Shown here: positions 38,109 through 43,943 of the stretch, piece by piece
Position numbering within the stretch: the stretch's first letter is position 1
Layout: every line of letters starts with the position of its first letter
Assembly: GCA_902591495.1 (NCBI GenBank)
Contig: CACJAW010000002.1
Span: 25,120 to 89,119 of the forward strand
Direction: 5' to 3'
From: an uncultured Pseudohongiella sp.
GTDB taxonomy: Bacteria > Pseudomonadota > Gammaproteobacteria > Pseudomonadales > Pseudohongiellaceae
DNA length: 64,000 nucleotides
Program-made: the position numbers and the translations under genes
The notes under the pieces: model-generated
Told to the model about the DNA's origin: nothing
The model's database searches: none
What the model saw: only the letters and a program-made list of their open reading frames with translations

Positions 38109-39230
38109 ATGCTGACTAGGCGCCAAGCTTTAAAATCACTCGCAACTATACCTTTAATAAATGGTTGCACCACATCTAATTTGCCAACGAACCGAAACTA
38201 TTCACCCTCTGGTATGCCACTAAGGCGGGTCAGGGTGTCAAGAAGTCGTATCATTCGCTCGATCGCTGGACTACGTCCGTTTCGTCCGTCAGGTTTTGTC
38301 GTAAACGCTGAAAGAATGAACGACAAGGTAATAATCCATAACTACGGGCATGGCGGCGGCGGAATCACCTTATCTTGGGGCACATCTCACCTTGCCATGG
38401 AGCTTGCAAATGAAACCGAATTTAAGCGTTGCGCAATTCTTGGTTGCGGCGCAGCGGGTTTGTCAGCAGCAAGGCTAATGCAAACTGCTGGATGGGACGT
38501 CACTATTTACGCAAAGGATTTACCTCCTAATACAACGTCAAATGTCGCTGGAGGCCAGTGGTCACCAACGTCTGTTTTTGAAGAACAGGTTGCAACGCCG
38601 AAATTCCTCCAGCAATTTGAAAGCGCCATGCGTCACGCTTACCGTTACTACCAGGATTTAGTTGGCAGTGAATACGGCGTTCGCTGGATAAGTAATTACA
38701 ACCTTGCTAATGACGTGGCCAATCCAAACAGTCTGTATTCAAAATACGCAAGCATGTACCCGCAGCAGCGTCTACTTGAGCCAACTGAACATCCGTTTAA
38801 TGCGGGAACCATTACGCACTTTGATACAATGCTAGTAGAACCAGCAGTCTACTTGCCTAAGCTAATGAGTGATGTCCAGATTGCGGGCGGCAAGATAAAC
38901 GTGAAAAATTTTCATGGATTAAGCGAAATACTGAGTTTAGCGGAACCAGTAATAATCAACTGCACAGGTCTTGGTTCCCGCGAGCTTTTCGGGGACAAGG
39001 ACTTAATTCCGATCAGAGGTCAGCTTACTTTTTTATTGCCCCAAGAAGAGGTCCAATACATTATTGTAGGAAATGAAGGGCTTTATATGTTCCCGCGCAG
39101 CGATGGAATCCTTTTGGGCGGAACTTTCGAACGCAATCAGTGGGATATCCAACCCGATCCTCAAATAACTGACCGCCTCATCAATGGGCACAAAGCATTT
39201 TTCAGCGCGATGCAAGACCCTTGGTCTTAG
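38109..39230 (+). CDS. Tat/lipoprotein-type FAD-dependent oxidoreductase, D-amino-acid oxidase-like with apparent circular permutation
   Basis: Start at MLTRRQALKSLATIPLINGC; GLRPFRPSG and HNYGHGGGGITLSWG (normally C-terminal in DAAO) precede CAILGCGAAGLSAARLM (normally N-terminal); C-terminus ILLGGTFERNQWDIQPDPQITDRL. Confidence 0.88.
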   Translation: MLTRRQALKSLATIPLINGCTTSNLPTNRNYSPSGMPLRRVRVSRSRIIRSIAGLRPFRPSGFVVNAERMNDKVIIHNYGHGGGGITLSWGTSHLAMELANETEFKRCAILGCGAAGLSAARLMQTAGWDVTIYAKDLPPNTTSNVAGGQWSPTSVFEEQVATPKFLQQFESAMRHAYRYYQDLVGSEYGVRWISNYNLANDVANPNSLYSKYASMYPQQRLLEPTEHPFNAGTITHFDTMLVEPAVYLPKLMSDVQIAGGKINVKNFHGLSEILSLAEPVIINCTGLGSRELFGDKDLIPIRGQLTFLLPQEEVQYIIVGNEGLYMFPRSDGILLGGTFERNQWDIQPDPQITDRLINGHKAFFSAMQDPWS

Positions 39231-39426: not shown

Positions 39427-40785
39427 ATGACGGCCTTCACAAAACTATCAATTAGGCTAGTTGGAATATTGACTTTCAGCGCTGTCTCACTCGCGAATGC
39501 GGACGATTTGACGTTTTACGCTGATGCTCTGCCAGTATTCCAAAAAAATTGTGTCGCTTGCCATCAAGATAATGGCCCTGATGTGGGTGGTATTTTTGCA
39601 CCTATGGCTTTGGATGACTACGAGCAAGCAAAAATATGGGCGCCCCTCATAAAAAACGCGCTCATCACCAACTATATGCCACCCTGGGGTGCTCACGAAA
39701 GGCACCGCGGCGAATTCAAAGGCGAAAGATACATCGATAAAAAAGAGAAGGATTTACTTATAGCTTGGGTTGATGGAGGCGCTCTTGAGGGTAACCCGTC
39801 CGATGCGGCAAATAATGCCGCTACCGTTGCTAATGGAGCAGGCACCACTCTTCCCGACTCAGGCTGGTGGATAGGTGATCCAGATCTTGTTGTTCAGTTC
39901 GAAGAGGACGTTTATGTTCCAGATGAAGTGATGGACTGGCAACCCACTATCCAGATGCCGGTACCCGAGGGTGCTCATGAAAATCCTAAATGGATTTCCA
40001 TGGCAGAGCTTGATCCGGGCGGGCCTTGGGTGCATCACATTGTATCGAGTCATATGGGAGTTGGTGTACCGGGACGTGGACCCTTTACCTACCCTGAAGG
40101 TTGGGGAGTTCTGTTGCCAGAGGATCCATTTATCACGGTAAATATGCACTACCATAAAAACCCTGGAGAGAATACTGCAGTCTCTGATTTGACACGGGCC
40201 GCTTTCAAATTCTACGAAGAAGGCGACGTAATTGACCATGTTGTGGAGACTAACTTACTGCCACATCGAGGTTGGACAATTCCGGCCGGGCATCCAAACT
40301 ACGAAGTGAATAATACCTACGAAATTGAAGAAGATATTTTTCTTCTCTCCATGGGTCCTCATATGCACTACCGTGGAAAGGCTATGCGCTATGAATTAGA
40401 GTATCCAGATGGTGAACGAGAGGTATTGCTCTGGGTACCCGACTATGATTTTAACTGGCAATTCTTGTATGAGTACGAAGAGCCAAAGTTCATCCCCGAA
40501 GGCTCAAAAATGCACATGAGTTGGTGGTTTGATAACTCCGAAGCTAACAGGTTTAACCCCGACCCTTCTCAAGACGTGGTCTATGGACCAGAGACTACCG
40601 ATGAAATGGCAAACGCCCGAATATACTATGCCCCAACAACACCGAGAGGGCTGGTGGTTGGTGAGCAAATTCCCGACGACATCATTAACAGGGCACGGGA
40701 GGAAGACATGATTCGCAGAGAAAGAGCCGATCTTTTTGATCCAGCTGCGGATGATTTCTCATGGTTAACAGAAGATAGCCCCTAA
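39427..40785 (+). CDS. Secreted c-type cytochrome / copper monooxygenase-like protein
   Basis: Signal peptide; FQKNCVACHQDNGPDVGG (CxxCH), MPPWGAHE, GPHMHYRGKAMRYELEYPDG; paralogue-like to 6493-7962. Confidence 0.8.
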   Translation: MTAFTKLSIRLVGILTFSAVSLANADDLTFYADALPVFQKNCVACHQDNGPDVGGIFAPMALDDYEQAKIWAPLIKNALITNYMPPWGAHERHRGEFKGERYIDKKEKDLLIAWVDGGALEGNPSDAANNAATVANGAGTTLPDSGWWIGDPDLVVQFEEDVYVPDEVMDWQPTIQMPVPEGAHENPKWISMAELDPGGPWVHHIVSSHMGVGVPGRGPFTYPEGWGVLLPEDPFITVNMHYHKNPGENTAVSDLTRAAFKFYEEGDVIDHVVETNLLPHRGWTIPAGHPNYEVNNTYEIEEDIFLLSMGPHMHYRGKAMRYELEYPDGEREVLLWVPDYDFNWQFLYEYEEPKFIPEGSKMHMSWWFDNSEANRFNPDPSQDVVYGPETTDEMANARIYYAPTTPRGLVVGEQIPDDIINRAREEDMIRRERADLFDPAADDFSWLTEDSP

Positions 40786-41933: not shown

Positions 41934-43943
41934 TTAAGTGCTAACAGGACTCCAGTCCTTGATTCGCACAGCAACTGCTTCCATGTCGTGCTTGCACACG
42001 CCGGATTTGTCTATTAATTTTGTTTCGCAGATATCACAGCGCACACATTCTTTGAAGTCAATTTTTGGCCCTCTAATTGCGCCAGTTGGACAAGAATGCT
42101 CACAAACTTTACATACATCACACTGAGGCACTCGCTTTATACGCCAGGGAGAGATTAAAGCTGTAACTCCAAGTGCTGCTCCCAATGGGCAAGCGTAGCG
42201 ACAATAAAAACGCGGTATTATTATCGAAGCAAATAAAAAGATAGCGAGGATTCCCCACAATAAGTAAGACTGGCTAAAGTAAAAAATAGTGCCGAATGGT
42301 TCGAAGTATTGAAATAAACTAAGGTTAGTGAAGGACAAAGCCATAACAATTAAAAACCCTAAAATTCCATACTTAGCATAGATTGCGATATCGTGGACCC
42401 GTTGAGGCAAATCTTTTGTAAACCTTTTTGGAGTAAAGTGCGCAATAAAATCTTGAAGCGCACCAAACGGGCAAAGCGAAGAGCAAAAGACCCTACCCCA
42501 AAACAAAGTTGTTACTACTGTAAAAATGAGTATCAATAATTGAGGCAGGTCGCTTCTAAACATTGATGGACCGATTTTTACAAAATTAGTAATGTGTGAC
42601 ACCGACACGAAACCACCATCCATCCAACCAAGATAAATCAGTGTAAAACCTAAAGTAACCCATCTTATCTTCACGCTTTTTCGCAGGAATGCCGTCATTA
42701 CGAACATCATCAGCAAGAGCAAAACCCCCACATCAACCCAGGGTGCATCATTAATAAGGCTCGCATATAGACCTTCATTTTGAAAAGCAGTTAAGTCATC
42801 ATCAATTTCAGGCAGTAATTCAGAGGGTACCGGCTGACCGAGCGCTAAAGCTAGAGGGATAGTAGGAACCGTGTAGGTTGTTTGTGCTATAGATCCGAAC
42901 TCACCTACCCGACCTCCTGTATTGTATAAAATATCAAAAGGCTTCGTAATATCAATCGCAGGATCTAAAACCATCGCTCCAGCAAAGCGAACTCTGTCCG
43001 CAATTTTTCCATAATCAGCACTGCCAACATAAACGAAGCGTCTCCTTTCTATAGGGAATACACTTTCTCCTTGCTGCACTGCCAACCGCTCCTGCCTGAA
43101 GGGTTGCGAAGAATTACCATCAATACCCACCAACAGCATATTCCCGTCGCTGACCCTCGCGCTTGCTTCCCTATCTGCTCTAGAATAGTCAACATCTCCA
43201 ACCAGAAGTTCTCCAAGGCCGTCATGTCCCATAAAAGCAAGGGCGAGCTGTAACTCAGTTCCGTCTGGCTGGATGACCGTCCAATTGACTACCAGTCCGT
43301 TCTCAATCATGTCATCCCAAGTTTGAGCTGCCAGTACTTGGAGGGCAACGGCATCAGCACTCGTCAGCGAAACAAACTCAGAATCTCCCAAATATGCTTC
43401 AGCTACTCGCCTGGCAGCATTACGTATTCCGCGGGACACTGCCCAACTCGTTATTGTAGCTCTGGATATTCCATCAACATCTCGACCGATACGGAATCCT
43501 TCCACAATGTTTTTGTTTTCAAATTGGTCGGGAAAATATTCACTATTGATAAAGTCACCACGAATACTTTTATAAGATTCAATGTAGTGAAGTATCTTTA
43601 AGCCCGTGATTGTGCCTCGTAAATCCATCCCCACCAAGATATCAACCGGAGCTGAATACCCAACCTCCTCGGGAGGCATATCAGGCGTTTCAAACAAATA
43701 TCCAATAGTCTGGGGCTCACGATTCTCTGGACTCTCTCGAAGAGCGCGGTACACAGGGGGCTCACCTTCTTTAGATGAAAATCTATCTGCATCCGGAAAA
43801 ACCTCGCGCATTAACTCCTCCGTAACGGCGATTGGCGGTTGACCGAAAATTTGAATTGGTAAAATTAAAAAGAAAAAGGGAATCACCAGCGACATTAGTC
43901 GGCGAGCGTATTTGACATGATAATTCAACAAACTAAACAGCAT
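41934..43943 (-). CDS. NosR/NirI-like protein: periplasmic FMN-binding domain, TM helices, polyferredoxin-type 4Fe-4S domain
   Basis: VDGISRATITSWAVSRGIR (flavinylation-like S-x-A-T-x-T), FCSSLCPFGALQDF, CRYACPLGAALG, CDVCKVCEHSCPTGAI, CVRCDICE. Confidence 0.9.
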   Translation of the reverse strand: MLFSLLNYHVKYARRLMSLVIPFFFLILPIQIFGQPPIAVTEELMREVFPDADRFSSKEGEPPVYRALRESPENREPQTIGYLFETPDMPPEEVGYSAPVDILVGMDLRGTITGLKILHYIESYKSIRGDFINSEYFPDQFENKNIVEGFRIGRDVDGISRATITSWAVSRGIRNAARRVAEAYLGDSEFVSLTSADAVALQVLAAQTWDDMIENGLVVNWTVIQPDGTELQLALAFMGHDGLGELLVGDVDYSRADREASARVSDGNMLLVGIDGNSSQPFRQERLAVQQGESVFPIERRRFVYVGSADYGKIADRVRFAGAMVLDPAIDITKPFDILYNTGGRVGEFGSIAQTTYTVPTIPLALALGQPVPSELLPEIDDDLTAFQNEGLYASLINDAPWVDVGVLLLLMMFVMTAFLRKSVKIRWVTLGFTLIYLGWMDGGFVSVSHITNFVKIGPSMFRSDLPQLLILIFTVVTTLFWGRVFCSSLCPFGALQDFIAHFTPKRFTKDLPQRVHDIAIYAKYGILGFLIVMALSFTNLSLFQYFEPFGTIFYFSQSYLLWGILAIFLFASIIIPRFYCRYACPLGAALGVTALISPWRIKRVPQCDVCKVCEHSCPTGAIRGPKIDFKECVRCDICETKLIDKSGVCKHDMEAVAVRIKDWSPVST

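Follow-up and report, generated by a model that had tools for sequence, protein, structure and literature searches.

The window, by which we mean the whole 64,000-nucleotide stretch of DNA analysed, comes from a marine bacterium and carries on its forward strand an open reading frame (38109–39230, ATG to TAG) that encodes a protein of 373 residues related to D-amino-acid oxidase (DAAO) and D-aspartate oxidase (DASPO). A longer ORF started by TTG (38055) was disfavoured, as the alignments of homologues begin at the ATG of 38109. The features of the gene and of two genes near it were as follows.

38109..39230, + strand: gene of a permuted DAAO/DASPO-like flavoprotein (373 aa; stop codon 39228–39230; homologue alignments start at the ATG)
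38109..38168, + strand: leader MLTRRQALKSLATIPLINGC, predicted to be a Tat signal with a lipobox (R4, R5 and C20 shared by all 12 family members aligned; TatC in the genome)
38238..38411, + strand: moved block, residues 44–101, equal to conventional DAAO profile positions 258–314 and normally C-terminal (HMM; also phmmer against 6rkf)
38274..38276, + strand: Arg56, counterpart of the Arg that binds the substrate carboxylate in DAAO/DASPO (aligns with 6rkf chain position 287)
38337..38363, + strand: HNYGHGGGG signature, residues 77–85 (H-x-Y-G-H-G-x-x-G; sequence and alignment)
38412..38426, + strand: new linker, residues 102–106, ETEFK (gap between the two HMM blocks; helix 85–101 and strand 107–111 in the model)
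38427..39218, + strand: Rossmann/FAD and substrate-domain block, residues 107–370, equal to profile positions 4–259 and normally N-terminal (HMM; Pfam DAO residues 108–367)
38442..38459, + strand: GxGxxG dinucleotide-binding motif, GCGAAG, residues 112–117, at Rossmann strand 1 (sequence and alignment)
39084..39086, + strand: Tyr326, equivalent of the DAAO active-site Tyr (aligns with 6rkf chain position 232)
39427–40785, + strand: CxxCH-containing exported protein
41934–43943, − strand: FMN-binding/4Fe-4S NosR-like membrane protein

The motif coordinates given in the initial annotation were correct, with GLRPFR at residue 54 (38268), HNYGHGGGG at residue 77 (38337) and GCGAAG at residue 112 (38442). 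That annotation had the protein end at GGTFERNQWDIQPDPQITDRL; this segment is present, but the chain runs past ...PDPQITDRL and has INGHKAFFSAMQDPWS added, which corresponds to the helix that comes before the moved segment in conventional DAAOs.

Searches with the native protein returned the two halves of a DAAO in exchanged order. A phmmer comparison with all PDB chains matched human DASPO (6rkf) in two significant stretches whose order was swapped, residues 105–357 aligning with 6rkf 12–263 (84.8 bits) and residues 49–102 with 6rkf 280–336 (27.3 bits). An HMM of 316 positions, built from ten conventional DAAOs, matched residues 44–101 at positions 258–314 (51.0 bits) and residues 107–370 at positions 4–259 (155.5 bits), and the best stretch for Pfam DAO was residues 108–367. 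With these swapped two-block matches from phmmer and the HMM, chance was excluded. After the blocks were exchanged in silico, the rotated chain aligned with 6rkf 13–331 in a single collinear stretch (5–328, E 8.7e-33), and the DAAOs of pig, human and Rasamsonia likewise aligned in one stretch. All 41 of the 41 family members were swapped in their native order against the conventional-DAAO HMM, and 38 of them became one long match upon rotation.

The two blocks tile the reference once, as 258–314 and then 4–259 of 316 positions, with neither duplication nor loss, and two blocks that tile a reference once are what defines a circular permutation. The cut lies at profile position ~258–259, after the last helix of the substrate domain and before the strand with the catalytic Arg, and the chain is sealed by ~5 residues, the linker ETEFK, which connects the old C-terminal helix with Rossmann strand 1 so that the old C- and N-termini are fused. 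The linear order of DAAO and DASPO, with the Rossmann segment first and HNYGHGG last, is not that of the window protein, and the swapped block order thus places it in a permuted subfamily and not among the conventional members. A second GLRPxR/HNYGHG segment, which had been named as a finding that would speak against a permutation if it lay at the C-terminus, was absent from the window protein, from the other 40 permuted proteins and from the three forward frames just downstream. Likewise, no collinear full-length match to a non-permuted family was found in Pfam, NCBIfam or the PDB, all of which match swapped pieces or one piece only. Based on these comparisons of sequence, we regard it as practically certain that the window protein is a genuine, naturally occurring circular permutation of the DAAO/DASPO family, as was originally proposed.

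The draft genome that contains the window is incomplete (66% complete, 100 contigs), a circumstance that would favor an assembly artefact, two partial genes fused together or a pseudogene whose permutation is only apparent. We rejected these explanations, and consider them exceedingly improbable, on the recurrence of the gene across loci and genomes and on its dN/dS. The full-length permuted order was found at 14 loci from independent assemblies (59–95% identity), and in the sample of relatives 28 of the genus's 37 genomes carry the gene, three of them in two copies; an assembly error that joined two genes is thereby excluded, the order recurring in dozens of genomes. The dN/dS of ~0.12–0.15 (Nei-Gojobori, against 95% identical orthologues) indicates that the permuted gene is under purifying selection. 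The single clade, its common breakpoint and a confident AlphaFold2 fold also argue against an artefact.

The AlphaFold2 model computed from 34 diverse permuted sequences had a mean pLDDT of 90.3 and a pTM of 0.87, with low confidence confined to the leader and a dip near residues 201–210; from 11 close sequences the pLDDT was 67, versus 90 from the diverse 34-row alignment. The best PDB matches identified by Foldseek were human DASPO and DAAO, with a TM to target of 0.64–0.69 in ranks 1–10 and an rmsd of 2.6 for the best, the TM being near 0.6 because the Foldseek alignment is sequential. By this prediction the permuted chain adopts a confident fold, to which DASPO and DAAO are the closest among solved structures.

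The permutation extends well beyond the window. All 41 sampled members, which come from Gamma- and Alphaproteobacteria and in one case from an actinomycete, were permuted at nearly the same point, and a profile spanning the new junction identified divergent members in the same permuted order, including a group with Sec-like leaders in genomes of 6–7 Mb. This junction profile found the gene in 20 of 399 sampled genomes of Pseudomonadota at large and, by reading, in 14 of 289 from Alphaproteobacteria, alongside a broken copy and a single conventional DAAO. Named hosts include Bradyrhizobium elkanii, Rhizobium ruizarguesonis, Niveispirillum, Kozakia and the actinomycete Nonomuraea gerenzanensis. 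When a conventional DAAO was used as the query against 249 proteobacterial genomes, only two matches were obtained at 1e-15 and both were permuted genes; the permuted form is therefore commoner than the conventional one in that sample. A copy of the Sec-leader type in the same phylum (L101, genome G884), which resembles clade D, has an in-frame stop codon and is an apparent pseudogene. Phage records searched for the permuted gene gave no match; permuted genes are present on three viral-collection contigs (L079–L081), where they may be host flanks.

The permuted proteins formed one clade. In trees of rotated sequences all 41 permuted proteins were on one side of one branch (support 100/99, unrooted), and this split was unchanged when only the columns shared with conventional DAAOs were used, so that an artefact of the junction columns was excluded. 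An unrooted tree in which one branch parts the two orders leaves their polarity undefined, and to that extent it would also suit an ancestral permuted order from which the conventional DAAOs arose by permutation. We consider this direction very improbable. The related models of the DAO superfamily (ThiO, MnmC and DadA) put the Rossmann motif first, and rooting with a DAO paralogue of conventional order (L015) left the permuted clade whole (99/99) and nested among conventional DAAOs, albeit with a long outgroup branch; by this nesting the permuted order is the derived one. The simplest reading of the trees is one origin, with the conventional order ancestral. In such an origin a DAAO gene would have been duplicated in tandem and fused, and both outer ends would then have been lost, which is the standard route to a circular permutation.

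The closest known proteins are DASPO and DAAO themselves (PF01266 DAO; human DASPO 6rkf, pig and human DAAO, Rasamsonia 7ct4), with which the window protein shares all blocks, GxGxxG, HNYGHGG, the Arg, the Tyr and the predicted fold; it differs from them in being permuted at ~258, with new termini, in the Tat/lipoprotein leader of the window branch, and in having ~25% identity. Conventional bacterial DAAOs (Nocardia L087, Streptomyces L121 and alphaproteobacterial L102) have the family and motifs in common with the permuted proteins, but are Rossmann-first, have no signal that we could see and form a separate clade (100/99). ThiO, the C-terminal domain of MnmC and DadA belong to the DAO superfamily and their models match the window protein weakly, below all curated cut-offs; their order is conventional. 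The L-amino acid deaminase of Proteus (5hxw, 5fjm), which is membrane-bound, is likewise a flavin amino-acid enzyme of the DAO superfamily, but has the conventional order and a low fold score (TM 0.40–0.48). The domain order of DAAO, a textbook flavoenzyme, is fixed, and in the open-access papers searched on circularly permuted DAAO, on flavoenzymes and on exported bacterial DAAO we did not find the permutation described. A conserved and widespread permuted clade indicates that the DAAO fold can accommodate old termini fused near the FAD together with new ones next to the catalytic Arg. The family is thus a natural test of how far DAAO can be rewired, and a natural scaffold for the engineering of enzymes and biosensors. 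Annotation that is blind to domain order ("FAD-dependent oxidoreductase") conceals such permutations.

The leader of the window protein, MLTRRQALKSLATIPLINGC, has a twin arginine followed by a hydrophobic stretch, as expected of a Tat signal, and R4, R5 and C20 were invariant in all 12 aligned members of the window clade. A TatC gene is present in the same genome. The lipobox Cys20 is preceded at −3 to −1 by I-N-G (I-N-G-C), which is weaker than the L-A-S-A-C and similar lipoboxes of its relatives. From the invariant residues and the presence of TatC, a Tat-exported lipoprotein is the best prediction, and by its sequence pattern the window protein is likely to be exported in this way.

The initial annotation had viewed the attachment of an export signal to the new N-terminus as an unusual evolutionary event. 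The twin-arginine/lipobox leader and the permutation both stood, but the permutation long predates this gene and extends well beyond it, and the link of export to permutation was not borne out. Five sampled permuted members are leaderless (L077, L080, L082, L083 and L085), and these sit in clade C, the deepest-splitting permuted clade. As permuted members with no signal exist, permutation and export are separable; judged by these sequences, the signal is a property of some branches, and the data give no ground for naming export at the new N-terminus as a cause.

The residues expected of an active enzyme were retained in the window protein. The FAD motifs were invariant, with GxGxxG kept across 51 aligned proteins, and R56, which aligned with 6rkf R287 (the carboxylate Arg of DAAO/DASPO), was invariant in 51 of 51. 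Y326 aligned with 6rkf Y232 and was kept in 24 of the 25 members outside clade B (the window clade, A2, C, D and E); the equivalent active-site Tyr of DAAO is Tyr228 in pig numbering. Given the retention of the FAD motifs, R56 and Y326, the window protein should be active as a flavin amino-acid oxidoreductase.

The gene neighborhoods of clade C are consistent with amino-acid oxidation. A ThDP 2-oxoacid decarboxylase gene of the indolepyruvate/phenylpyruvate/pyruvate type comes after the permuted gene in Bradyrhizobium, Rhizobium and Nonomuraea, and three of the five leaderless members (L082, L083 and L085) precede such a gene. A 2-oxo acid product would suit a decarboxylase neighbor, which indirectly supports amino-acid oxidation by the permuted fold, and the gene set at these three loci looks like a small amino-acid-to-aldehyde pathway. 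The conserved pairing of a leaderless permuted DAAO with a decarboxylase-like enzyme there spans Alphaproteobacteria and an actinomycete, and is plasmid-borne in the rhizobia. In the two rhizobia a gene for an FAD-binding oxidoreductase (of the berberine-bridge type in the one tested) lies upstream of the permuted gene.

Taking the permutation and the leader together, we think it probable that the window protein is a circularly permuted enzyme that is loaded with FAD in the cytoplasm, exported by Tat and oxidizes amino acids in the periplasm. It would bind FAD in the cytoplasm, cross the membrane folded via Tat, be anchored by a lipid at Cys20 and act in the periplasm. Arg56 and Tyr326 would hold the carboxylate of the amino acid, hydride transfer to FAD N5 would produce the imino acid and then the 2-oxo acid, and O2 or a respiratory carrier would accept the electrons. 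The likeliest substrates are D-amino acids, because the closest characterized relatives are D-specific, and on balance we favor amino-acid, most likely D-amino-acid, chemistry for the window protein.

The substrate might instead be something other than a free D-amino acid, for instance glycine, an N-alkyl amino acid, an opine or a peptide N-terminus, a reading we consider rather unlikely. Folds of glycine oxidase, opine dehydrogenase and sarcosine oxidase score next after DAAO/DASPO, and some permuted members are near peptidases. In addition, the active-site Tyr and the GGT motif were lost in all 16 clade B sequences (loci such as L061, L062, L066, L086 and L092), while the Arg and FAD motifs stay; the chemistry of clade B has probably changed relative to the rest of the permuted family. 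In the window branch, on the other hand, both the Arg and the Tyr are kept, the D-amino-acid enzymes are best in both sequence and fold by a wide margin, and the NCBIfam models of ThiO and DadA are far below their cut-offs.

D-amino-acid oxidation in the exported branches could also be coupled differently, with the same fold working as a respiratory dehydrogenase whose electron acceptor is a cytochrome c or quinone in the periplasm, and not as an H2O2-producing oxidase. On a plasmid of Kozakia baliensis (L086:3833-5493) a cytochrome c gene starts 5 bp after the permuted gene, and a gene with a CxxCH motif is located downstream, in the same orientation, in four relatives as well as in the window; an oxidase, moreover, would release H2O2 in the periplasm. 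Against this, the two genes do not form an operon in the window family, where three relatives have an opposite-strand gene between them (peroxiredoxin by reading), the members of clade C have no cytochrome neighbor, and the closest characterized relatives are oxidases that use O2. We regard the dehydrogenase as a rather improbable but serious alternative.

More broadly, we tentatively suggest that the permuted protein may be the main proteobacterial DAAO, with several functional branches: cytosolic oxidases acting with 2-oxoacid decarboxylases, periplasmic lipoprotein dehydrogenases that would feed cytochrome c from D-amino acids of the cell wall or environment, and a Tyr-less clade B with altered chemistry. 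The family points to a D-amino-acid metabolism of marine and soil Proteobacteria that is largely unstudied and in part periplasmic.

An assignment of function from an operon was rejected for the window clade, as its neighbors vary and include no conserved operon. The recurring parts of the neighborhood were two gene families upstream and the cytochrome-like and FMN/FeS genes downstream, and in L004, L007 and L014 the pair of a CxxCH gene and a NosR-like gene is again found close to the permuted gene. At the Kozakia locus, genes for an S9 peptidase and a hydrolase of the beta-lactamase fold lie upstream, with a TonB receptor nearby. A peroxiredoxin-like gene (by reading) adjoins the permuted gene on the other strand at L004:6297-6854, L006:6785-7324 and L014:6207-6917, and its product is a possible H2O2 sink.
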